From contig PQAI01000262.1 of the NCBI GenBank assembly GCA_003105245.1, forward strand, positions 21,637-38,768: a DNA stretch of 17,132 bases, given 5' to 3'. Below are positions 1,186-10,932 of this stretch, piece after piece. Positions within the stretch are counted from its first letter, which is position 1; each line of letters starts with the position of its first letter. The stretch comes from Betaproteobacteria bacterium. GTDB lineage: Bacteria; Pseudomonadota; Gammaproteobacteria; Burkholderiales; Usitatibacteraceae. Position numbers and translations under genes: made by a program. Under the pieces are notes generated by a model. The model worked only from the letters and a program-made list of their open reading frames with translations. It searched no databases and was not told where the DNA came from.

Positions 1186-2400
1186 ATGGCGCTCGTGAAT
1201 CCCCATGGCGGCGGGCCGCTGCGACCGCTCGCGCTCGAGGGCGCCGCCCTCGCGGCCGAGCTCTCCCGCGCGAAGAAGCTCCCGCGGCTCACGGTGAGCT
1301 CGCGCGAGAAGGGCGACCTCATCATGATGGGCATCGGGGGCTTCACGCCCCTGGAGGGCTTCATGACGCACGCGGACTGGCAGGGCGTCTGCGACGGCAT
1401 GCGCACGGCCTCCGGGCTCTTCTGGCCCATCCCCATCACGCTTTCCGCCGGCGAGGCGGAGGCCGGCGCGATCGCCGTCGGGGGCGAGCTGGCGCTCCTC
1501 GACCCGGACGACGGCTCGATCCTCGCCACGATGCTCGTCACCGAGAAGTACGCGATCGACAAGGCGCACGAGTGCGCCAGCGTGTTCCGGACGACGGAAG
1601 CCGAGCATCCCGGCGTGCAGATGGTGATGGCCCAGGGCGAGGTGAACCTAGCCGGCCCCGTGAAGGTGCTCTCCGACGGCGGCTTCAAGGCGAAGTACGG
1701 CGCGCTCTTCATGACGCCTGCCGAGACCCGCGCGGAGTTCGAGCGGCTCGGGTGGTCGCGGGTGGCGGCCTTCCAGACGCGAAACCCCATGCACCGCTCG
1801 CACGAGTACCTGGCCAAGGTGGCCATCGAGGTCTGCGACGGGGTCCTCATCCACTCCCTGCTGGGCAACCTCAAGCCCGGGGACATCCCGGCCGACGTGC
1901 GCACGAAGGCGATCGGCGTGCTCACCGAGAAGTACTTCCTCGGCAAGACCGTGGTGCAGGCCGGCTACCCGCTCGACATGCGCTACGCCGGCCCGCGCGA
2001 GGCGCTGCTGCACGCGCTCTTCCGCCAGAACTACGGCTGCTCGCACCAGATCGTCGGGCGCGACCACGCGGGGGTGGGGAGCTACTACGGCCCCTTCGAC
2101 GCGCACCACATCTTCGACCAGATCCCGCACGATGCCCTGGAGACCAAGCCGCTCAAGATCGACTGGACGTTCTGGTGCTACAAGTGTGGCGGCATGGCCT
2201 CGGCGCGCACCTGCCCGCACGGCGACGCCGACCGGCTGCTCGTCTCGGGGACCAAGCTTCGCAAGTGGCTTTCGGAGGGCGCGGACGTGCCCGCGGAGTT
2301 CAGCCGCCCGGAGGTCCTGGAGATCCTGCGGGAGTACTACGCGACGATCGAGGCGAAGGACAGGGTCGAGGTGAAGCTCACGGGTCACTCTGCGCGCTGA
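1186..2400 (+). CDS. sat: ATP sulfurylase (sulfate adenylyltransferase), dissimilatory type
   Basis: This 404-aa protein matches the monofunctional homo-oligomeric Sat family in length and motifs. The nucleotide-binding [11 protein letters not shown] motif is at 197-207, GRDHAG at 291-296 and SGTKLR at 354-359. A cysteine/histidine cluster, C331-x2-C334 with C343 and H345, resembles the zinc site of prokaryotic Sat. In sulfur oxidisers Sat runs in reverse, converting APS and pyrophosphate to ATP and sulfate, as the last step of indirect sulfite oxidation. The ATG at 1186 has an excellent AGGAGG ribosome site a few bases upstream. It lies just downstream of the soeC-like gene rather than beside apr. 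Its last 23 bases overlap the 3' end of the convergent lysR. Confidence 0.96.
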
Positions 2401-3328
2401 GCGCGAGTCCCTCGGCCTCCGCCTCCCTCCCCGGAGGGGCGTCCAGCCTGCGCTTGGCGAACTGCACGAAGGCCCCCACGAGTCCCGACTGGATGCGCTC
2501 CCGGGGATAGACCGCCGTCAGCTGCCGCGTGAGCGGCGGCGAGAGGGGAATGCGCGCGAGCAGGCCCAGCCGCACTTCCTTCTCGACGGAGACGCGCGGC
2601 ACGATCGCGATCCCCATGCCGGCCGCCACCAGTCCCTTGAGGGCCTCCGGGCTGCTCGCCTCCATCACCACGTGAAGCGCTCCGGGCTCGATCCCGGCCC
2701 TCTCCAGGTAATGGTCGATCACCTCGCGCGTGCCGGAGCCCTGTTCCCGCGAGAGATAGGCGTGCTCGACGAGGGCGGCGGCCGGCACCGACCGGCGTGC
2801 CGACAAGGGATGTCCGGGGGCGCAGACGACCTGCAGCTCGTCGCTGCACAGCCGCTCTCCCGCGAGGGCCGGAAGGTACGAATCGCCCTCGATGAACCCG
2901 ATGTCCAGGGCCCGCTCGCGCACGCGCTCCTGGACCGTCTCGGAATTGCCCACGAAGAGGCTGGGCACCACGCCCGGGTGGGCCGCCTTGAATTCCCCGA
3001 GGATCTGCGGCAGCAGGAAGTCCGCGATCGTGGTGCTCGCGCCGATGAGCAGGGGGCCCGCGACCTGGCCGCCCATGTCCCTCAGGGCCGACTCGAGCTC
3101 CGCCGTCAGCGCCAGGATCCTCTCGGCATGCGCGAACGCGACGGCCCCCGCGGGCGTGAGGGAGATGCGGCCATGGGTGCGGTCGAAGAGCCGGGTGTTG
3201 AAGTGCTCTTCCAGCTGGCGGACCTGGAAGGTCACGGCCGGCTGGGTCATGCAGAGGGCTTCCCCCGCCTTCGTGAACGAGAGGTGCTTCGCGACCGCGT
3301 GGAACACCTGGAGCCGCCGATCCGCCAT
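2378..3328 (-). CDS. LysR-family transcriptional regulator, probably of sulfur oxidation genes
   Basis: This 316-aa protein has the normal LysR layout. The N-terminal winged helix-turn-helix (about residues 4-62) contains [20 protein letters not shown] and [15 protein letters not shown], and an effector-binding domain runs from about 90 to 295. The N-terminal region resembles CysL/CbbR-like regulators more than metabolic specialists, but the effector cannot be read from the sequence. The gene comes last in the - strand train that begins with aprM, but 111 bases separate it from the preceding gene and include a plausible operator (3353-3366), so it may have its own promoter. Its 3' end overlaps the end of convergent sat. 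Its position between sat and apr suggests control of one or both. Confidence 0.88.
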
Positions 3329-3336
3329 CGCCCTAT

Positions 3337-3351
3337 CCCCTATTAGAGGGG
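3337..3351. repeat. Short perfect inverted repeat in the lysR leader
   Basis: CCCCT-ATTAG-AGGGG forms a 5-bp stem with a 5-base loop, 8 bases upstream of the lysR start codon. It could be a small hairpin near the lysR ribosome-binding region or part of an operator. The repeat is directly visible; any function is inference. Confidence 0.3.
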
Positions 3352-3352
3352 C

Positions 3353-3366
3353 TTATTCAAGCATAA
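3353..3366. promoter_or_regulatory. Candidate LysR-type operator TTAT-N6-ATAA upstream of lysR
   Basis: TTATTCAAGCATAA is a dyad (TTAT/ATAA) that contains the T-N11-A pattern typical of LysR-type regulator sites. It is an AT-rich island in very GC-rich DNA, 24 bases upstream of the lysR start, where autoregulation would be expected. On the - strand the same patch offers a weak -10-like TATGCT. No matching copy was found by eye before sat or aprM. Confidence 0.4.
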
Positions 3367-3410
3367 AAACGGGCATGCCGAGAGGGAGGGCTGCGTCGCG
3401 GGCCAGGCGC

Positions 3411-3423
3411 CCGGGTTGCCCGG
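3411..3423 (-). terminator. Possible hairpin after the 388-aa gene (weak terminator)
   Basis: CCGGG-TTG-CCCGG is a GC-rich 5-bp hairpin 16 bases beyond the stop codon of the 388-aa gene in its direction of transcription. A T-run (TTTTT on the - strand, opposite 3366-3370) follows only about 40 bases later, so it does not make a canonical intrinsic terminator with this stem. It may protect the 3' end or pause polymerase before lysR. Confidence 0.22.
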
Positions 3424-3439
3424 CCGACCCGCTGACCCG

Positions 3440-4606
3440 CTAACCCGCGGAGGTCAGGTTCACGCCCTTTGACTCCCCGCGCTCGACCTTGTCGATGCAC
3501 CTCACGACCAGCTTGTTCAGCGCGTCCGGGTTGAATGTCGTGATGTTGGACTTCTTGGAATGGTGCATCAGCGCCGACAGGGCCGCGCCCATCTCGGAAG
3601 CGGCGAACGCGGCCGACAGGCCGTCGTCCAGGACATCCACGAAGTAGGGGTAGAACATGTGCCCGGCGATGCGCGCATCCCCGCGCCCGACCTGGTACTT
3701 GCCGTTGAACGCGGCGTCGACCAGCGGGTCGTCGAACGTCTCCGCGATCCTCGTGGACTCCTGCGCGTCCAGGGGAAGGTGAATCAGGTACTGCTTGTTC
3801 TGGTACTGGTAGCACGTCAGTGACCCGCCGTTCGAGAAGCCCAGCGCGAAGGTCATGCTGGGATCCATGTGCGGGTTGTGGTTCTTGGTGAAGCGCTCCG
3901 TGATGTTCAGCAGGACCTCGTTCGACATCTCGTCGGGGAAGATCTGCGTGCCGAACTTCTCGATCAGCTCGTCGTCGTTCAGGCAGACGATGACGTCGTT
4001 GTTGCCGACGCGCGGCTTGATCGTGTCGAAGCCGATGCCCGTGGGCACGATGACCTGCGGCCCCAGGTAGCTGTTCAGGTATCCCGGCGTGATGATGGGG
4101 ATGTTGTCCGCCCTCCTGAACCTCGTCTTGATCTCGGCATCCAGCGTGTCGATCGGCGGGTGCGGCGAGACGAGCAGGTACGTCCGCCCGTGCGCATTGC
4201 CGTTGTAGCACTCGCGCGGGCCCCAGATGGGCGTGTGCACCTGGACGATGTTCACGTCGTTGAAGACGTGGGCGTCGATTTCCTGCTGGGCGATCGACGC
4301 GCGGTCCTCGGGCAGGATGATCTTGAACTGGATGTCGACCTGCATCGCGGAATAGAGCGCCACGAGGCTCAGGAAGACGTTCGTCGTGTTGCCGCCCGAG
4401 TTGGGCGGGGAGACGTCCTTCCTCGCGATGAAGTATTCCGGGTGGTCCTTCTCGTCCAGCTTCAGGCGGAAGCCGTCCTTGTCCTTGGTGACCGTCTGGA
4501 GCGGGATCTTGTTGTAGCGGAACTTCGGGATGTCGACGAACTCCTCGACATAGTAGTCGTTGACCGGCACGCCGATGGCGCGCAGTTTCGGTGTCAGCGT
4601 ACCCAA
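3440..4606 (-). CDS. Conserved-looking 388-aa cytoplasmic protein of unknown function in the apr gene train
   Basis: I do not recognise the family. The 388-residue protein has no signal peptide, membrane segment or familiar nucleotide or metal motif. It is unusually rich in Asn, Ile, Asp and Tyr for such GC-rich DNA, which suggests strong constraint rather than a chance frame. Segments that look conserved are SPPNSGGNTTNVF (66-78), HTPIWGPRECYNGNAHGRTY (124-143) followed by LLVSPHPPID, and ITPGYLNSYLGP (172-183). Cysteines are at 133, 208, 265 and 370. The start is TTG at 4606, supported by a strong GGGGAGG site (4615-4621, - strand) at 8-base spacing; no ATG or GTG fits better. It lies 72 bases after the CBS-domain gene on the same strand, so a role linked to APS reductase or sulfite metabolism is possible. 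Confidence 0.8.
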   Translation of the reverse strand: MGTLTPKLRAIGVPVNDYYVEEFVDIPKFRYNKIPLQTVTKDKDGFRLKLDEKDHPEYFIARKDVSPPNSGGNTTNVFLSLVALYSAMQVDIQFKIILPEDRASIAQQEIDAHVFNDVNIVQVHTPIWGPRECYNGNAHGRTYLLVSPHPPIDTLDAEIKTRFRRADNIPIITPGYLNSYLGPQVIVPTGIGFDTIKPRVGNNDVIVCLNDDELIEKFGTQIFPDEMSNEVLLNITERFTKNHNPHMDPSMTFALGFSNGGSLTCYQYQNKQYLIHLPLDAQESTRIAETFDDPLVDAAFNGKYQVGRGDARIAGHMFYPYFVDVLDDGLSAAFAASEMGAALSALMHHSKKSNITTFNPDALNKLVVRCIDKVERGESKGVNLTSAG

Positions 4607-4678
4607 AGCCGGATCCTCCCCGCGCGCTCAGCCGCGACGATGCTCGCCATCCCGGGCTTCTCGGCCGGGTCGATGCCG

Positions 4679-5203
4679 CTACTTCCTCTTCGCGCCCTTC
4701 TTCGCGGCGGGCTTGCGCGCCGTCTTGCGCTTGCCCGAGGCGGTCGCCTTCACCGCCTTCCTGCCGGTCCTTGCGGGAGTCTTTCCTGCGGCCTTCTTCG
4801 TCGGCTTCTTCTTTTCCGGCCGGGCGTTCAGCATCCCGGCGGCGATCTTGAATATGTCGGTTTCCGTGATGATGCCGACCAGGGTCCTGCCGGCGTCCAG
4901 GACGGGGAGGCTGCCGATATGGTGTGCCACGAGCAGCCGGGCAGCCTCCTTCAGCTGGGCGCTCGCCGGGACGCAGACGGGAGGGCCGCCCCGCATGATC
5001 TCGCCGACGGGCACCTCGGCCGATCCGTAGTTCGCGGCGGCGAGCAGCACGTCACGCTCGGCGATCATGCCGATCACGCGATCGCCCTCGACGACCGGCA
5101 AATGGTGGATTCGCCGGCTGCGCATCAGGTCGAAGGCCCGGTGGAACTCGGTATCCGGCCCGACCGTCACGACCGGCCGGGTCATGTACTGGCTGACTTT
5201 CAT
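4679..5203 (-). CDS. Tandem CBS-domain protein with a histone-H1-like lysine-rich tail
   Basis: This 174-aa protein has two CBS domains (about residues 6-57 and 69-122), including the typical MTRPVVTVGPDTEF, HHLPVVEGDRVIGMIAERD and GSLPVLDAGRTLVGIITETD signatures. A pair of CBS domains forms a Bateman module that usually binds adenine nucleotides. Residues 131-174 are a low-complexity basic tail with 15 Lys and 5 Arg among Ala, Thr and Pro, resembling bacterial histone-H1-like or AlgP-type tails that bind nucleic acid. The ATG at 5203 has a good GGAGG site. It follows the 53-aa gene by 43 bases in the apr train. A nucleotide-sensing protein that contacts DNA, RNA or a membrane is a reasonable inference. 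Confidence 0.88.
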   Translation of the reverse strand: MKVSQYMTRPVVTVGPDTEFHRAFDLMRSRRIHHLPVVEGDRVIGMIAERDVLLAAANYGSAEVPVGEIMRGGPPVCVPASAQLKEAARLLVAHHIGSLPVLDAGRTLVGIITETDIFKIAAGMLNARPEKKKPTKKAAGKTPARTGRKAVKATASGKRKTARKPAAKKGAKRK

Positions 5204-5246
5204 GTCGATCCTCCAGGCCCTGCTCGTCCGGGCTGCGGCATTGCGC

Positions 5247-5408
5247 CTACGGCTTCTTCGGCGTCTGGTACTCGGCTTCCTTCTGGAACGGCTCCCAGAT
5301 GGTCTCGTAGCCGACGAACCCCTTCTCGTTCGGGGGCATCTGGCGCGTCGTCAGGAAACGCGTGTGACCGTCGGGAACCTTGGCGGGCGGCGGTTTGTGA
5401 TCGCTCAT
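5247..5408 (-). CDS. Small 53-aa protein of unknown function between the FKBP and CBS genes
   Basis: A 54-codon frame runs from ATG (5406-5408) to TAG (5247-5249). The peptide starts MSDHKPPPAKVPDGHTRF and ends YQTPKKP, with GFVGYETIWEPFQKEAE in the middle. It is hydrophilic and proline-rich, and it has no cysteines, signal peptide or membrane segment. It is placed with 43-base gaps on both sides, matching the regular spacing of this gene train, and a GAAAGG-like ribosome site lies upstream. Its composition (Tyr, Trp, Phe, Asn, Lys and few Arg or Ala) is unlike a random frame in GC-rich DNA, which favours a real gene over the overlapping 71-codon frame at 5200-5415. Function unknown; a small partner of a neighbouring protein is possible. 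Confidence 0.68.
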   Translation of the reverse strand: MSDHKPPPAKVPDGHTRFLTTRQMPPNEKGFVGYETIWEPFQKEAEYQTPKKP

Positions 5409-5451
5409 GAGGCACCTTTCTCGCGGGTGATGTGGGGAATGTTCTGGAAAA

Positions 5452-5967
5452 TCAGCCGACGGGCCTCAGGCGCGCCGGGTCGACGCCGGCGCCCGCGGCG
5501 GGAATCGCCCCACCGGCCTTCGTCTCCTCGTCCGTCGCGTCGCGCACGGCCAGGATCTCGAGGACGAAGACGACCTGCCTGCCGCTGAGCGGATTGTTGC
5601 CGTCGACCGTGAGCTTCTCGTCATCCACCTGCGTGACGAGGAAGCTGCGGGTCTCGCCCCGGTCGTTCTCCATGAGGATGGAGGTGCCGACCTGCCGGTA
5701 CTCCTCCGGGACGTTCTCGATGAAATCGGTGAAGACCAGCGACTCGTCCCGCGGGCCGAAGATCTGGCTGCCGTCGATCGCCACCTCGATGACGTCGCCG
5801 GCGGACCTGCCCTCGAGCTGCGCGTGGACCGAGGGGGCCAGGATCTCGTTGTGCCCGTGGACATAGCCCAGCGGGAACTCGACCCGGGTGAGGACGTGCC
5901 CCGTCTTCCGGTCGGTCACCTTGTAGGTCAGCTCGACGAACTTGCCGTCCCGGATGGCTTCGCGCAC
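5452..5967 (-). CDS. SlyD-like FKBP-type peptidyl-prolyl cis-trans isomerase
   Basis: This 171-aa protein follows the SlyD plan. An FKBP core contains YVHGHNEIL (35-43) and LEGRSAGDVIEVAIDGSQIFG (51-71), an inserted chaperone flap spans roughly 73-120, and the closing DGNNPLSGRQVVFVLEIL strand begins at 122. SlyD proteins speed prolyl isomerisation and act as folding chaperones. The histidine/cysteine-rich metal-binding tail of E. coli SlyD is absent; the C terminus is a short Ala/Gly/Pro tail. I chose the GTG at 5967, 19 bases after the preceding stop; an upstream in-frame ATG at 6051 would add 28 non-homologous residues inside the previous gene. Its place in the apr train suggests a role in folding or maturing Apr proteins. 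Confidence 0.85.
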   Translation of the reverse strand: MREAIRDGKFVELTYKVTDRKTGHVLTRVEFPLGYVHGHNEILAPSVHAQLEGRSAGDVIEVAIDGSQIFGPRDESLVFTDFIENVPEEYRQVGTSILMENDRGETRSFLVTQVDDEKLTVDGNNPLSGRQVVFVLEILAVRDATDEETKAGGAIPAAGAGVDPARLRPVG

Positions 5968-5986
5968 GTGGGGTCCCGGCGATCGT

Positions 5987-6337
5987 TCAGAAGATGGACG
6001 CGCCGAAGATCCTGACCTTCCCGTCCTCGTAGCCGAGGACCAGGCGGCCAAGCCACTCGCCGGGCTTCTTGGTGCTGCGCTGCCGGTAGACGACCGTCAC
6101 GTGCTCGCCCCGGCGGATGATGCCGAGCGGGTCGGCGTCCTCGGAGAGGTTCCTCGCCAGCTCGCTGTTGGCGAACTGGTGGCCCGCGACGACCTGGTTC
6201 ATGGCGAGCGCGAGCGCGCTGGAGAAGTTCCTGGCGAACTCCCCGTACTTGCCTTCGTTCGAGTACTTGACCAGGTCTCGCCACAGCGGCTTCGCCATGG
6301 CGAGGATCTCCTCGTCGGTCTTGTCGACGATGTTCAC
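5987..6337 (-). CDS. Unknown 116-aa protein encoded directly after aprA
   Basis: I do not recognise this protein. The GTG start at 6337 (NIVDKTDEEILAMAKPLWRD) has a GGGGAG ribosome site, and the frame ends at TGA 5987-5989. The N-terminal 60 residues look helical (LAMAKPLWRDLVKYSNEGK, FARNFSSALALAMNQV). The C-terminal half looks like beta strands (EHVTVVYRQRS, EWLGRLVLGYEDGKVRIFG). That helix-then-sheet order is compatible with an NTF2-like fold, but this is only a guess from pattern. It has no cysteines, no signal peptide and no membrane segment. It sits 53 bases after aprA and 19 bases before the SlyD-like gene, so co-expression with APS reductase is likely. Confidence 0.75.
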   Translation of the reverse strand: MNIVDKTDEEILAMAKPLWRDLVKYSNEGKYGEFARNFSSALALAMNQVVAGHQFANSELARNLSEDADPLGIIRRGEHVTVVYRQRSTKKPGEWLGRLVLGYEDGKVRIFGASIF

Positions 6338-6375
6338 GGGCGGCTCCCCGGGAGCGGGGGGGACGCCCGCGGCGG

Positions 6376-6389
6376 GGCCCGGCGGGGCC
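6376..6389 (-). other. GC-rich hairpin immediately downstream of aprA
   Basis: GGCCC-GGCG-GGGCC forms a 5-bp stem with a 4-base loop, starting one base past the aprA stop codon. There is no T-run, so it is not a normal intrinsic terminator. It could stabilise the aprMBA part of the message or lower expression of the downstream accessory genes. Chance is quite possible in such GC-rich DNA. Confidence 0.25.
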
Positions 6390-6390
6390 G

Positions 6391-8259
6391 CTACTTCTCG
6401 TCCGCCACCAGGTGATAGCACGGCGCCTTCTCCATGGTGTATTCGCCGGTCTTCGGGTCGCGGCGCGAAACCGTCAGCACGTGCCAGTTCGCGTCGTCCA
6501 CCTTCATGGCGTCGCCCCGGTAGTAGTAGCCGGGCCAGCGGGTCTCCTTGCGGAAGAGCGTGTGGTGCGTGACGCACTCGGCGGCGCGGTGGCGGTGCTT
6601 CAGCTCCCAGGCGCGCAGCAGCTCGTGGATGTCCTTGGCGGCCAGGCTCTCGAGGTCCTCCTCGAGGATCCGCATCTTCTTGAGGCCGATGTGCAGGAGC
6701 TTCTCGTTGGTCATGTAGTTGACCGTCACGCCGCCGCAGTATTCGTCCATCAGCTTCTGCAGGCGGTCCAGGCCCTGCTTGGGATTGATGTAGTGCGGGT
6801 TGACGTCGCCCGCCACGATCTCGTTGCGGTAGATCCGGTAGTGCTCCAGGGGCTTGTAGATCTCCTCCTTGCGGCGGTTGATCTGCTCGTCGGACACGAC
6901 GATGCCCTCGGCCTTCCCGTCGTCGATGTACTTGCAGGCGGCCTTCGCGGCCAGCCGCCCCTCGGTGAACGACCCCGACGAGAACGCGTGCGGCGTGCCG
7001 CCGACCGCGTCGCCGGCGCCGAACAGGCCCTCGACGGTCGTCATGCGGTTGTAGCCCCAGAAGTACTCGGGCGGGGAGAGGTCCTCGGGGCCGGAGCACC
7101 AGGCGCCGGAACCCGTCGCGTGCGAGCCCATGACGTAGGGCTCGGAGGTGGTGAGCTCGGGGTTCTCGTTCTTGGGATCCACGTCGGTGGCGGCCCACAG
7201 GACCGCCTGGCCGACGGTCATGCCGAGGAAGTTCTCCCAGCCGACCTCCTCCAGGTGCGGATCCTGGAAGGCGCGCATGGTGATCATGTGGATGGGGCCG
7301 CGGCCGGCGTTGATCTCGCTGATCAGCGCGTGGTTGCGCAGGCAGGTCGGGATCGGCCGGTGCGTCAGGTGAGAGGCTTCCGGGTCGAGGTATTCCTTGC
7401 CGACCATCTTCTGCAGTTCGGGGAACCACTTGGACTCGTACTCCTCGCCCAGGCCGTTCTGCGTGTAGGTCTTCAGGTGCAGGAAGTAGGCGCCGACCGG
7501 GCCGTAGCCGTCCTTGAACCGCGCCAGCACGATGCGGTTCTCCATCTGCGTCATCTTGGCGCCGGCATTGATCAGCAGGCCGTAGGCCGAACCGGAAGAC
7601 CAGGGCGCGTACCACGTGCGGCCGGAACCCTCGCCCACGGAGCGCGGCTTGAAGATGTTGGAAGCCCCGCCCGCGCCGCAGATAACGGTCTTGGACTTGA
7701 AGACGTGGTAGTTGCCCGTGCGGACGTTGAACCCGACCGCGCCGGCGACGCGGTTCGGCTTGGCGTCGTCCATCAGCAGGTGGGTGACGCAGATGCGGTT
7801 GAAGACCTTGTCCGCCGACTTCTTGGCGGCCTCGGCCACGATGGGCTTGTAGGACTCGCCGTGGATCATGATCTGCCAGCGCCCTTCGCGCAGGTAGCGC
7901 CCGGTCTTCGGGTCCTTCATGATCGGCAGGCCCCACTCCTCGAACTGGTGGACGGCGGAGTCGACGTGGCGCGCCATGTCGAAAAGCAGGTCCTCGCGCA
8001 CCATGCCCATCAGGTCGATGCGGGCGTAGCGGACGTGGTCCTCGGGGTTGTTCTCGCCCCAGCGCGTGCCCATGTAGCAGTTGATCGCGTACAGGCCCTG
8101 GGCGACCGCGCCGGAGCGGTCGATGTTGGCCTTCTCGGCGATGACGATCTTCTTGTCCTGCCCCCAGAATCTCGCCTCCCAGGCGGCACCCGTGCCGCCA
8201 AGTCCCGCACCGACGACCAGGACGTCGATGCCGTCTTCGATGATGGTTTCGTAGGCCAT
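6391..8259 (-). CDS. aprA: Adenylylsulfate (APS) reductase alpha subunit
   Basis: This 622-aa flavoprotein is the catalytic subunit that interconverts APS with sulfite and AMP; in sulfur oxidisers it forms APS from sulfite. The FAD-binding motif VGAGLGGTGAAWEA starts near residue 16 and is followed by IDRSGAVAQGLYAINCYMG. Other hallmark AprA segments are ARFKDGYGPVGAYF, RGPIHMITMRAF, PYVMGSHATGSGAWCSGPED and GLFGAGDAVGGTPHAFSSGS. The length is that of full AprA. Its ATG overlaps the aprB stop by one base (TAATG), indicating translational coupling. A 616-codon antisense open frame over the gene is a codon-bias shadow. Confidence 0.98.
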   Translation of the reverse strand: MAYETIIEDGIDVLVVGAGLGGTGAAWEARFWGQDKKIVIAEKANIDRSGAVAQGLYAINCYMGTRWGENNPEDHVRYARIDLMGMVREDLLFDMARHVDSAVHQFEEWGLPIMKDPKTGRYLREGRWQIMIHGESYKPIVAEAAKKSADKVFNRICVTHLLMDDAKPNRVAGAVGFNVRTGNYHVFKSKTVICGAGGASNIFKPRSVGEGSGRTWYAPWSSGSAYGLLINAGAKMTQMENRIVLARFKDGYGPVGAYFLHLKTYTQNGLGEEYESKWFPELQKMVGKEYLDPEASHLTHRPIPTCLRNHALISEINAGRGPIHMITMRAFQDPHLEEVGWENFLGMTVGQAVLWAATDVDPKNENPELTTSEPYVMGSHATGSGAWCSGPEDLSPPEYFWGYNRMTTVEGLFGAGDAVGGTPHAFSSGSFTEGRLAAKAACKYIDDGKAEGIVVSDEQINRRKEEIYKPLEHYRIYRNEIVAGDVNPHYINPKQGLDRLQKLMDEYCGGVTVNYMTNEKLLHIGLKKMRILEEDLESLAAKDIHELLRAWELKHRHRAAECVTHHTLFRKETRWPGYYYRGDAMKVDDANWHVLTVSRRDPKTGEYTMEKAPCYHLVADEK

Positions 8260-8738
8260 TAGTAGTACACGCCTTTCTTCAACTTGAGGCCCGCGTCCTT
8301 CAGCGAGCGCAGGCCGCCTTCATCCAAGCGGATGTACTTCGGTTCGTTGTACAGCAGCTCGCCTTCGCGCATCTCCTTGCCGGGGCCGGGGACCTCCGCG
8401 AGCTTGGGGATCGCCTGTCCCCAGGGCTTGGTGGTGATGGGGGAGAGGAAGTTCTTCTCCGTGCCGTTGCGGAACTTGATCCGCCAGGCGATCGTGCCCT
8501 TCTGCTCGTCGCGGTGGACGCGCACGCTGTGGCCCAGGGGGGCGAAGTCGGCGTAGCCGCGCACGTCGATCGCGTGCTGCGGGCAGGCCTTCACGCAGGA
8601 GTAGCACTCCCAGCACATGTTCGGCTCGATGTTGTAGGCGCGCCGGTAGGTCTTGTCGATGTGCATGATGTCCGAGGGACAGATGTCGACGCAGTGTCCG
8701 CATCCGTCGCACCTCGTCATGTACACGAAGGTAGGCAT
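8259..8738 (-). CDS. aprB: Adenylylsulfate (APS) reductase beta subunit, two [4Fe-4S] clusters
   Basis: This 159-aa ferredoxin-like subunit transfers electrons from the AprA flavin. Two cluster motifs are visible, C10-x2-C13-x2-C16-x3-C20 (CDGCGHCVDICP) and C42-x2-C45-x2-C48-x3-C52 (CWECYSCVKACP), followed by the long AprB C-terminal extension that wraps AprA. The ATG at 8738 has an AAGGAG ribosome site. It is 46 bases downstream of aprM and overlaps aprA by one base, giving the aprMBA order known from sulfur-oxidising beta- and gammaproteobacteria that lack the Qmo complex. Confidence 0.98.
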   Translation of the reverse strand: MPTFVYMTRCDGCGHCVDICPSDIMHIDKTYRRAYNIEPNMCWECYSCVKACPQHAIDVRGYADFAPLGHSVRVHRDEQKGTIAWRIKFRNGTEKNFLSPITTKPWGQAIPKLAEVPGPGKEMREGELLYNEPKYIRLDEGGLRSLKDAGLKLKKGVYY

Positions 8739-8784
8739 AAGCTGGCTCCTTGGTTCCGTTCCGCGGGAAGGCGCGGGTTGGCTT

Positions 8785-9612
8785 CTAGTAGTGGCGCGGG
8801 GCTTCGCGCTTGATGCCGAGCCCCATGTCCATGGGGGCGTCCTTCAGCAGCTCCATCGAGTGCCGCTCCCGCTGGGCGGGATCGTCCCGGGACTGCGTCG
8901 GCAGGTTCATGTTCGTGCCGTTGGCCTCGGCGACCCGCTTCTCGAAGGCCGCCGCGGGCTTGAAGAACATGTGCGCGAACTTGGACCAGTACACCCCGCC
9001 GAACAGCACCGTCGTGGCCAGGAGGTACAGGCCGAAGACCACGCCGGAGGCCGCGCTTGCGCTCGCCTGCAGCCAGGCCCAGACGAGGCCGAGCGTCACG
9101 CTGGCGAGGAGCGAGAGGATGAAGAGGTCGGCGCGCATCAAGCGAAGCGGCGTGCCGCCCTCGGCCGCGACGTCGACGCGGATGAAGAACCAGAACCAGT
9201 AGCCCCCGGCCAGCGCCATCGCGCCGCCGAGCCACCAGAGCTGCGCCACCAGGGCCGGCGTGGGCGTGGCGGCCGTCGGGTAGGCGTAGACCATCAGGAT
9301 GGTGGTGACGAGGTACAGGATGAACCCGTACATGGTCAGCAGGTGGGCGACGCGGCGCCGCTGGTTGCAGAATTCCCCCGAGGCGAGGACGTCCACCACG
9401 ACGGTCTTGACCGCGATCGAGGCGACGTCGACCGGGGCGCCCTTGCCCTTCGTCTTGCGCCAGTTGGCGAAGAAGTAGGTCGCGCTGCCCTTGTGGGCGA
9501 CGTCCAGGAGCGTGCCGACGATGACCGCCAGGATCATCAGCCCCACGTACCACTGCATGAAGCCGGCGGGCAGATTTCCCGAAACCGCCGCGAAGGCATT
9601 GCTGGTGAACAT
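8785..9612 (-). CDS. aprM: AprM, membrane anchor/electron acceptor subunit for APS reductase
   Basis: This 275-aa protein has about five to six membrane segments (for example MQWYVGLMILAVIVGTLLDV and YGFILYLVTTILMVYAY) and histidines in RRVAHLLTMYGF and YWSKFAHMFFKP. That arrangement resembles the heme-b anchors of the QmoC/HmeC and nitrate reductase gamma type. AprM is proposed to link AprBA to the quinone pool in organisms without qmoABC. I chose the ATG at 9612 because a strong GGGAGG site (9619-9624) lies six bases upstream; an in-frame ATG at 9660 would add 16 residues with no comparable site. It is the first gene of the apr train. Confidence 0.92.
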   Translation of the reverse strand: MFTSNAFAAVSGNLPAGFMQWYVGLMILAVIVGTLLDVAHKGSATYFFANWRKTKGKGAPVDVASIAVKTVVVDVLASGEFCNQRRRVAHLLTMYGFILYLVTTILMVYAYPTAATPTPALVAQLWWLGGAMALAGGYWFWFFIRVDVAAEGGTPLRLMRADLFILSLLASVTLGLVWAWLQASASAASGVVFGLYLLATTVLFGGVYWSKFAHMFFKPAAAFEKRVAEANGTNMNLPTQSRDDPAQRERHSMELLKDAPMDMGLGIKREAPRHY

Positions 9613-9659
9613 CCTTTTCCTCCCTGCTTGTCGTTCGTGCGCGTCACCGAAAGAAGACA

Positions 9660-9689
9660 ATTATGGAGGGCGATCCCGGGGGCGTGGAA
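9660..9689 (-). promoter_or_regulatory. Candidate sigma-70 promoter of the apr operon
   Basis: On the - strand a CATAAT -10 element (9660-9665) follows a TTCCAC -35 element (9684-9689) at 18-base spacing, about 50 bases upstream of the aprM start. It lies in the 94-base gap after the phosphodiesterase gene, an unusually AT-rich patch here. The -35 match is only fair. Read-through from the upstream gene pair is also possible, because I see no intrinsic terminator in the gap. Confidence 0.4.
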
Positions 9690-9706
9690 AGAATCGGGTG
9701 ATGGGC

Positions 9707-10219
9707 CTATAAAGGGATCGTATGGACCTCGAATCGCATGTCCCCGAGGTCGCCCAGGACCCAGGTGGCCGGGCCGGAGAGGCCCGCCACCGTGCCGGGG
9801 TTGACGAGCCAGGTGGAGCCTGCCTTCACGTCGGCCACCTGCCGGGCCTCCGCGCGGTGCGAATGGCCGCAGCACACCAGGTCCCACTCGCCCGTGCAGG
9901 CGAGCGCGTACCCGAGGTGGTCGTAGTGGGTCACGATGATGCGCCGGCCGGCGAGCTCGAGCCGGGCCTCGGCGCCGTGGTACTGGAGCAGGCCGCCGCT
10001 CATGCGTGACTGGTAGTGCATCGCCTGCGCGTCGCCCAGGTTGTTGCCGTGGATGGCGTGCACCGGGAGGCCGGCCGCGAGGGCGGGCTTCACGGTCTGG
10101 GCGCCGATGAGGTCGCCACAGTGGATGACCGCCTGGGCGCCGAGTGCCTTCGCCGCATGCACGGCGCGCGCGAGCGGGTCGGCGCGATCGTGGCTGTCGG
10201 ACACGATGCAGAGCTTCAT
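9707..10219 (-). CDS. YfcE/MJ0936-type metallophosphodiesterase
   Basis: This 170-aa calcineurin-like phosphoesterase has the family's metal-binding blocks in order: SDSHD (D8, H10), CGDL (D36), HGNN (N59), VTHYD (H98), GHSHR (H119, H121) and a closing NPGTV. The third block is normally THGH, and here the second histidine is replaced (THYD), which may alter metal binding or activity. YfcE-like enzymes hydrolyse phosphodiesters in vitro, and the physiological substrate is usually unknown. The ATG at 10219 was chosen because the core motif begins at once (MKLCIVSDSHD); the upstream frame extension is a shadow of the neighbouring gene. It starts 14 bases after the AhpD-Rieske gene, so the two are probably co-transcribed. 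Confidence 0.9.
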   Translation of the reverse strand: MKLCIVSDSHDRADPLARAVHAAKALGAQAVIHCGDLIGAQTVKPALAAGLPVHAIHGNNLGDAQAMHYQSRMSGGLLQYHGAEARLELAGRRIIVTHYDHLGYALACTGEWDLVCCGHSHRAEARQVADVKAGSTWLVNPGTVAGLSGPATWVLGDLGDMRFEVHTIPL

Positions 10220-10233
10220 GGGCGGGCCGGCGC

Positions 10234-10866
10234 CTACCAGAGCACCTCGAGGCGGCCGCCGGTGAGGCGGTGCTCGAGGCGGTTGAGGGGGCTGGTGCCC
10301 TTGGCGATGCAGTTGCCGGTGGCGAGGTCGAAGGCCCACTCGTGCTTGGGGCAGGTGAGCGTGCGGCCCTTGAGCGCGAGCTCGGGAATGTTGGTCACCT
10401 GGTGCGGGCAGCGGCTGTCGTAGACGCGGATCTCGGCGGCGGCGCGGTAGACGAAGAGCCCGCGATCGCCCACCTCCAGGCGCTTCACGCCGTCGGCCGG
10501 CAGGTCGGCGAGCGCGGCCACGTCGTGCCACTCGGGCTTCGCCTTTCCGCCCAGCCGTTCCGGGTCGAATCCGGGAATATTCATCTCGAGGATGATGTTC
10601 ACTGCCCAGATGATCTTCGCCAGCCCCAGCGCGGGGAAGGCCATGAGCAGGGCGTCCAGGATCTCGTCGGGCGAAGCGCCCTCGCGAAGCGCGCGGCCGA
10701 GGTACTGCTTGAAGCCGTTGCGGGTCTGGGCGTGGACCTTGGTGATGACCGAGATGAGGTTGCGCGTCTTGGGGTCGAGGTGCCGGCCGGCTTCCTTGAG
10801 GAAGGCGAGGTACGGACCGATGGCCTCGGGGCGGGCCTTGACGAGGTAGTTGAGTGCGTCGCTCAT
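10234..10866 (-). CDS. AhpD/carboxymuconolactone-decarboxylase-like domain fused to a Rieske [2Fe-2S] domain
   Basis: This 210-aa protein has two parts. Residues 1-100 form an all-helical AhpD/CMD-like domain (KTRNLISVITKVHAQTRNGF, then GASPDEILDALLMAFPALG), but the redox CxxC that AhpD carries after the helix is missing: QTRNGFKQY stands where cysteines are expected. Residues 112-210 are a Rieske ferredoxin domain with C153-P-H155 and C172-P-K-H175, the C-x-H...C-x2-H ligand set for a [2Fe-2S] cluster. The Rieske part resembles soluble NirD/dioxygenase-type ferredoxins. The first half probably serves as an oligomerisation or binding module rather than a peroxidase partner. It is first in a two-gene unit with the phosphodiesterase. 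Partner and substrate are unknown. Confidence 0.85.
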   Translation of the reverse strand: MSDALNYLVKARPEAIGPYLAFLKEAGRHLDPKTRNLISVITKVHAQTRNGFKQYLGRALREGASPDEILDALLMAFPALGLAKIIWAVNIILEMNIPGFDPERLGGKAKPEWHDVAALADLPADGVKRLEVGDRGLFVYRAAAEIRVYDSRCPHQVTNIPELALKGRTLTCPKHEWAFDLATGNCIAKGTSPLNRLEHRLTGGRLEVLW

Positions 10867-10932
10867 GGGCGTGGGGATGATCGCGGTGGGAAGCGGAAAG
10901 CGGGCGCTCCGGAACCCGGGGCGGATTGGAGC

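Follow-up and report, generated by a model that had tools for sequence, protein, structure and literature searches.

We start from the dissimilatory adenosine 5'-phosphosulfate (APS) reductases, the described systems closest to the locus studied here. According to the excerpted text of PMC2211403, AprM is the constant partner of the lineage I enzyme AprBA, Qmo is believed to take the place of AprM in lineage II, and the electron partner of the AprM-type APS reductase was called unknown in 2008. The excerpts of PMC3779200 describe sat-aprMBA as a transcriptional unit in Allochromatium. The locus considered here lies in a stretch of 17,132 nucleotides from a Betaproteobacteria bacterium (contig PQAI01000262.1), called the window below, and has on one strand, the minus strand, the gene order aprM-aprB-aprA-p116-SlyD-like-p53-CBS-p388-lysR. 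A sequence-only reading of the window had taken the five genes between aprA and lysR for one uncharacterised accessory module of APS-dependent sulfite oxidation. On balance we lean towards a composite block, in which p116, the SlyD-like gene and p53 are an old helper set of the AprM-type APS reductase and CBS-p388 is a later local insertion.

The identity of the enzyme itself is certain, as AprB (8259..8738) scores 208.2 bits with the model TIGR02060 (cut-off 135.65) and AprA (6391..8259) scores 1094.5 bits with TIGR02061 (cut-off 641.75). The presumed membrane anchor gene aprM (8785..9612, with a likely ATG start in an open reading frame (ORF) that extends to a TTG at 9660) stands directly 5' of aprBA, and its product matches the QmoC model weakly (30.9 bits, cut-off 300). 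This order is that of the lineage I aprMBA loci of Meyer and Kuever (excerpts of PMC2211403), and AprA of the window falls on the AprM-bearing side of our AprA tree; the locus is thus of the AprM type. We apply the label lineage I because of aprM, the tree holding no named lineage I reference sequence. Unlike the window, the same excerpted account mentions no p116, SlyD-like gene or p53. Nor are these three genes mentioned in the excerpted texts of PMC5099947, PMC3779200, PMC10504309, PMC4136832, PMC5024460, PMC6504805, PMC8269255 and PMC6397845; among the open-licence titles and abstract starts listed, none treats them as Apr partners, and Meyer and Kuever 2007 (Microbiology 153:3478) may show these ORFs. 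A second point of comparison is the operon of the other partner. In Desulfovibrio, qmoABC is reportedly followed by a promoter-distal hypothetical gene, a finding said to be that of Zane et al. in 2010. The likeness, taken from the description, is that an uncharacterised gene ends the operon of an APS-reductase partner in both cases; the enzyme lineage and the partner differ.

The five ORFs lie where the sequence-only reading had placed them, on the strand of aprMBA and behind it. The gap between aprA and p116 is 53 nt, those that follow are 19, 43, 43 and 72 nt, matching the tight packing (19 to 72 nt) that had been noticed, and p388 is separated from lysR by 111 nt. All five stand above chance as genes: p116 has 6461 homologues in public sequence data at E<=0.001, p388 has 103, p53 has matches in 28 genomes of the 275 described below, solved structures of SlyD resemble the SlyD-like protein in sequence, and the CBS protein matches PF00571. 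Confident Pfam matches among the six proteins downstream of aprA are confined to the CBS protein and the LysR regulator.

The evidence that carries our reading is the distribution of p116 (5987..6337, GTG start, 116 aa). In a sample of 275 genomes from the window's class, aprA scores above the cut-off in 78, and 34 hold a full-length aprA of the AprM type, assigned by score, AprM neighbourhood and tree; the assignment covers full-length genes, and the aprA fragments of G230 and G147 are excluded from this number. Strong p116 matches are also found in 34 genomes, 31 of them with a full-length AprM-type aprA and three (G031, G084, G125) with aprA fragments at contig ends that stand outside this assignment, that of G125 being 102 nt long. 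Three AprM-type genomes are without p116 (G161, G172, G174), and no strong p116 match occurs in the sample without aprA or fragments of it. With phylogeny ignored, the co-occurrence has a Fisher probability of 4e-34 for full-length genes and 2e-40 with the fragments. On the same contig, p116 adjoins aprA in 32 of the 34 genomes; G084 and G125 carry them on separate contigs. Weak matches (G041, G050, G248 and a second match in G255; G343, G432 and G453 in the phylum sample below) are kept out of the strong counts, and no apr gene was found in the DNA fetched around them.

The position of p116 is equally regular. We compare 62 apr loci, namely 60 that were fetched (48 taken from the class sample, for the most part at its best-scoring places, and 12 from genomes with p388) together with L002 and L003; aprA is present in 62, aprM in 40, p116 in 36, the SlyD-like gene in 35 and p53 in 23. 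Every locus with p116 has it on the 3' side of aprA and in the same orientation (36/36), and the SlyD-like gene follows it directly in 32 of these loci with a median gap of 20 nt. The AprA tree has 42 rows on its AprM-bearing side, the window included (grouped there with a support of 100/100), and 21 rows on the other, where L086 sits on a very long branch. We equate this other side with the lineage II of Meyer and Kuever since it is without aprM; the tree holds no named reference. p116 is present in 37 of the 42 rows and in none of the 21. Outside the class the arrangement recurs: a p116 profile run on 299 genomes of the phylum, where only p116 was counted, matches 12, which are the window's own genome, eight strong matches outside the class and three weak ones. 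Around the eight, the order aprA-p116-slyD is kept in six and p53 is nearby in seven, while in L102 and L105 p116 is close to the end of its contig (420 and 0 nt away), with slyD next to it. A mirror-tree comparison of protein distances gives correlations of 0.91 for AprA-SlyD, 0.87 for AprA-AprB, 0.73 for AprA-p116 and 0.47 for AprA-AprM (35 rows); the values carry no correction for how closely the species are related, and we draw no evidence from them.

The predicted structure of p116 has an NTF2-like fold. It resembles members of the NTF2-like superfamily such as the DUF3887 protein 4hyz and the enediyne protein SgcE6 (4i4k), from which it differs in having no Pfam family and no convincing match to a PDB sequence; for 73 members, the families listed at E<=1 include no described NTF2-like one. 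NTF2 folds often act as dimers or as docking domains. The claim that three of the five proteins (p116, p53 and p388) belong to no known family holds for their sequences, and it gives way for p116 and p388 at the level of predicted fold.

The second gene of the set codes for a protein of 171 residues (5452..5967, GTG start) that matches solved SlyD structures (PDB 8g01, 2k8i, 3cgm) over residues 11-152 with an E value of 8e-19, a homology that spans the FKBP and IF domains. It differs from SlyD in scoring below the curated model (PRK10737.1, 71.7 bits against a cut-off of 174), in having no Pfam match at E<=1 and in belonging to an apr-linked clade. SlyD of E. coli ends in a His/Cys-rich metal-binding tail, which is missing from the translation of the window's gene. 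Class-sample matches at E<=1e-25 split into two groups. The high-scoring group has 33 members at >=200 bits, 30 of them beside p116 on the same contig and the others in G189 (on another contig, near its end), G041 and G178; the apr-linked copies and that of G178 form one clade with a support of 1.0. The second group scores 95-145 bits and has other positions, in 14 of 20 fetched loci (L129, L131-L141, L143, L145) between genes that we take from their sequences to be atpC and glmU. Of the 20 genomes fetched for this group, 18 have aprA above the cut-off. Both groups together cover 82 of the 275 genomes, 75 of these with aprA or fragments, a figure that may partly reflect ancestry.

The third gene, p53 (5247..5408, ATG start), codes for a conserved protein of 53 aa and follows the apr genes more loosely than p116 or the SlyD-like gene. 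Of the 28 class genomes that have it, 25 also have p116, and in 21 either aprA or p116 is no more than about 10 kb away on the same contig; order and strand vary. In part of the loci slyD and p53 are separated by a gene for a TPR, DUF4279 or HIT protein, assignments that come from one scanned member per family, for HIT a 60-residue excerpt. In L113 and L114, the loci of G041 and G178, the SlyD-like, TPR, DUF4279, HIT and p53 proteins are found at about 50-87% identity to those of the window or its fetched relatives. Two lone copies of p53 (L115, L116) have neighbours without a visible link to sulfur oxidation.

The DNA between aprA and p116 would bear on how much of the proposed helpers is made. 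The median length of this gap over the 36 loci is 145 nt, and we searched the 31 gaps of 40-320 nt for hairpins of <=-12 kcal/mol followed by a T run, setting aside five (0, 2, 34, 34 and 1452 nt). A terminator-like hairpin is present in 26 of the 31, compared with 0, 1, 2, 5 and 3 in five shuffles, and behind slyD in 3 of 32. None is found in this gap in the window, in L002 or in five other loci of the same genus. Across window positions 2300-10900, the promoter scan finds no sigma-70-like site, and terminator-like sites number 6, where shuffled sequences give 4.8 +/- 2.4. One shared transcript is thus plausible in the window's genus, where read-through is likely and no hairpin intervenes, and doubtful in general: with a hairpin in most relatives, p116-slyD elsewhere probably depends on read-through or on a promoter of its own. 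In L053, where the gap is 1452 nt, an apparent transposase-like insertion, judged by reading the sequence, lies behind the usual hairpin.

Taken together, the pairing with one enzyme type, the neighbour from a chaperone family and the lower dose to be expected behind a hairpin argue for a role in assembling or stabilising AprBA/AprM, which is our best reading of p116, the SlyD-like gene and p53. In the mechanism we propose, p116 would most likely bind AprBA (or AprA) during assembly or during docking to AprM, the SlyD-like FKBP would most likely aid the folding of one Apr protein, and p53 would be an auxiliary of the trio. The hairpin after aprA would set the dose of p116-slyD below that of the enzyme in most relatives, and such a dose fits helpers better than stoichiometric subunits. 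The accessory set that had been proposed thus survives for p116 (31 of 34 genomes with a full-length AprM-type aprA) and the SlyD-like gene (30 of 33 beside p116), and more loosely for p53. It fails for CBS and p388 on the refuting condition that the sequence-only reading had itself set, homologues that mostly lie away from apr.

Several observations weigh against this reading. Five AprM-bearing loci (L065, L067, L072, L082, L083), which form one clade (96/98), have neither p116 nor the SlyD-like gene nor p53; not all AprM-type enzymes, then, need the trio. Three more (L066, L070, L071) keep p116 and have no SlyD of the apr clade and no p53, and p53 is missing from 9 of the 34 genomes with p116. 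G041 and G178 carry the high-scoring SlyD-like gene and p53 with no detected apr gene; in both, the contig breaks off no more than about 100 nt from slyD, and apr may be missing from the assemblies. The second SlyD-like group, at atpC and glmU, means that the family as a whole is not specific to Apr. No columns of AprA, AprB or AprM track the loss of p116 beyond a control (4/387 against 3/370, 1/88 against 6/89 and 0/102 against 4/106, respectively). Finally, the Foldseek matches of the p116 fold are weak, none reaching E<=0.001.

The remaining two genes behave differently. The CBS protein (4679..5203, ATG start) has two CBS domains (PF00571, 4.5e-31, in two stretches) and a basic tail, and p388 (3440..4606, TTG start, 388 aa) has a predicted ribokinase-like fold. 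The 103 homologues of p388 were found among 5.8 billion proteins, and in the class sample it occurs in a single genome, the window's own. Among 18 GTDB loci with p388, no apr gene was found in 16, in the 4-21 kb examined around it; the two with apr nearby, L002 and L003, appear to be the same-genus genomes G581 and G582, having identical aprA coordinates. A CBS relative adjoins p388 in L002, L003 and L019. The 30 ORFs that flank p388 in the 16 loci (1-3 per locus; 24 with a Pfam match, 6 without) are mostly unrelated genes, and p388 was rejected on this ground as an apr-linked gene. One of these neighbours, in L018, is a CxxCxxCC protein, whose domain is also found 3' of aprA in AprM-less loci. 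Within the window's genus, aprA is in 8 of 8 genomes (two in pieces) and p388 in 3 of 8; in the five genomes free of p388 (L120, L122, L123, L124, L125), lysR comes next after p53, the two matches being 28-129 nt apart with no CBS or p388 between them. This looks like an insertion of CBS-p388 between p53 and lysR rather than several losses, insertion being the simpler course.

Most genomes with p388 nevertheless carry aprA or dsrA. aprA scores above the cut-off in 13 of the 18 and is present in 15 with fragments, against a class background of 78 in 275, the one background counted; dsrA is found in 14 and aprA or dsrA in 17, the 18 genomes not being phylogenetically independent. The predicted fold of p388 places it near the ribokinase/PfkB superfamily (pseudouridine kinase 7vva, adenosine kinases, ribokinases), with Foldseek TM-scores of only about 0.35-0.57. 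Members of this superfamily carry the motifs GG..N, N..E and G.GD, the last usually as GAGD. In 52 p388 sequences G71, G72, N73, G307, G309 and D310 are invariant and N210 and E213 are kept in >=90%; p388 has GRGD where ribokinases usually have GAGD. It also differs from them in having no convincing Pfam, NCBIfam (none at E<=0.1) or PDB sequence match: no carbohydrate-kinase Pfam model is listed for the 52 members at E<=10, and the best sub-threshold match is DUF6908 (0.0029). Because p388 occurs in sulfur oxidisers at unrelated sites, its job would not be tied to making APS reductase.

We weigh here the other explanations of the block. That all five genes form one accessory module, as first proposed, is now very improbable. 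Tight co-directional packing with no terminator in the window, the 15 and 14 of 18 p388 genomes with aprA (or fragments) and dsrA, and a CBS gene that stays beside p388 in three loci would fit such a module, but the site is empty of both genes in all five p388-free genomes of the genus, p388 has no apr gene in the 4-21 kb examined around it in 16 of 18 loci and mostly unrelated neighbours, and its one occurrence in the class is the window's own. The single module is therefore rejected for CBS and p388, and the proposal is largely refuted for this pair. At the other end of the block, p116 and the SlyD-like gene could be neutral passengers on transferred apr segments, since apr genes are known to move laterally (excerpts of PMC2211403) and p53 has drifted to other positions. 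We judge this improbable, as p116 is kept in 37 of 42 AprM-bearing rows over AprA identities down to about 71%, has 19 invariant columns in 23 sequences, and is never seen as a strong match without aprA or its fragments in the class sample.

In the main rival reading p116 is not an assembly factor: it belongs to the mature AprM-AprB-AprA complex itself, as a small subunit or a docking adaptor. The close pairing with AprM-type aprA is what such a subunit would show, and so is its lack from the 21 AprM-less loci, lineage II enzymes being believed to use Qmo and not AprM (excerpts of PMC2211403); the dimeric or docking habit of NTF2 folds suits it as well. We hold it to be rather unlikely, because a hairpin that stands in 26 of 31 gaps would make the doses unequal, p116 is absent from five AprM-bearing loci, and AprA, AprB and AprM carry no matching signature. 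As between these readings we stay with the helper set and the later insertion.

The surroundings of the block complete the picture. The LysR regulator (2378..3328, PF03466 and PF00126) is convergent with an ORF on the plus strand (1186..2400) that we take from its sequence to be sat, for ATP sulfurylase; its relatives adjoin apr genes in fetched loci. Just 5' of aprM (9707-10228) lies a calcineurin-like (YfcE-like) phosphoesterase, a gene found directly 3' of p116 in L066, L070 and L071, and farther upstream (10234-10866) a gene whose product joins a carboxymuconolactone-decarboxylase-like domain to a Rieske domain, kept there in the same-genus loci L120, L122 and L123. On the AprM-less side, a CxxCxxCC-domain family (PF03692, one member scanned) stands 3' of aprA in 15 fetched loci (L068, L069, L073, L075, L076, L084, L085, L086, L090-L094, L096, L097), so this other Apr type may own an accessory gene as well.

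A bolder version of these ideas, which we put forward tentatively, is that p116 (an NTF2-fold protein found almost nowhere else), the Apr-linked FKBP and the 53-aa protein are an unrecognised, dedicated maturation set of the AprM-type enzyme, and that sulfur oxidisers share in p388 a new ribokinase-fold enzyme serving dissimilatory sulfur oxidation, for example as a kinase of adenosine, which would supply AMP, or of a sulfur-linked substrate. p388 is in any case a separate lead, a family without a name, with a predicted kinase fold, concentrated in dissimilatory sulfur oxidisers. p116 is common in public sequence data, yet without a convincing Pfam match, and it would give a direct genetic handle on the assembly of the AprM-type APS reductase and on its electron route to the membrane.

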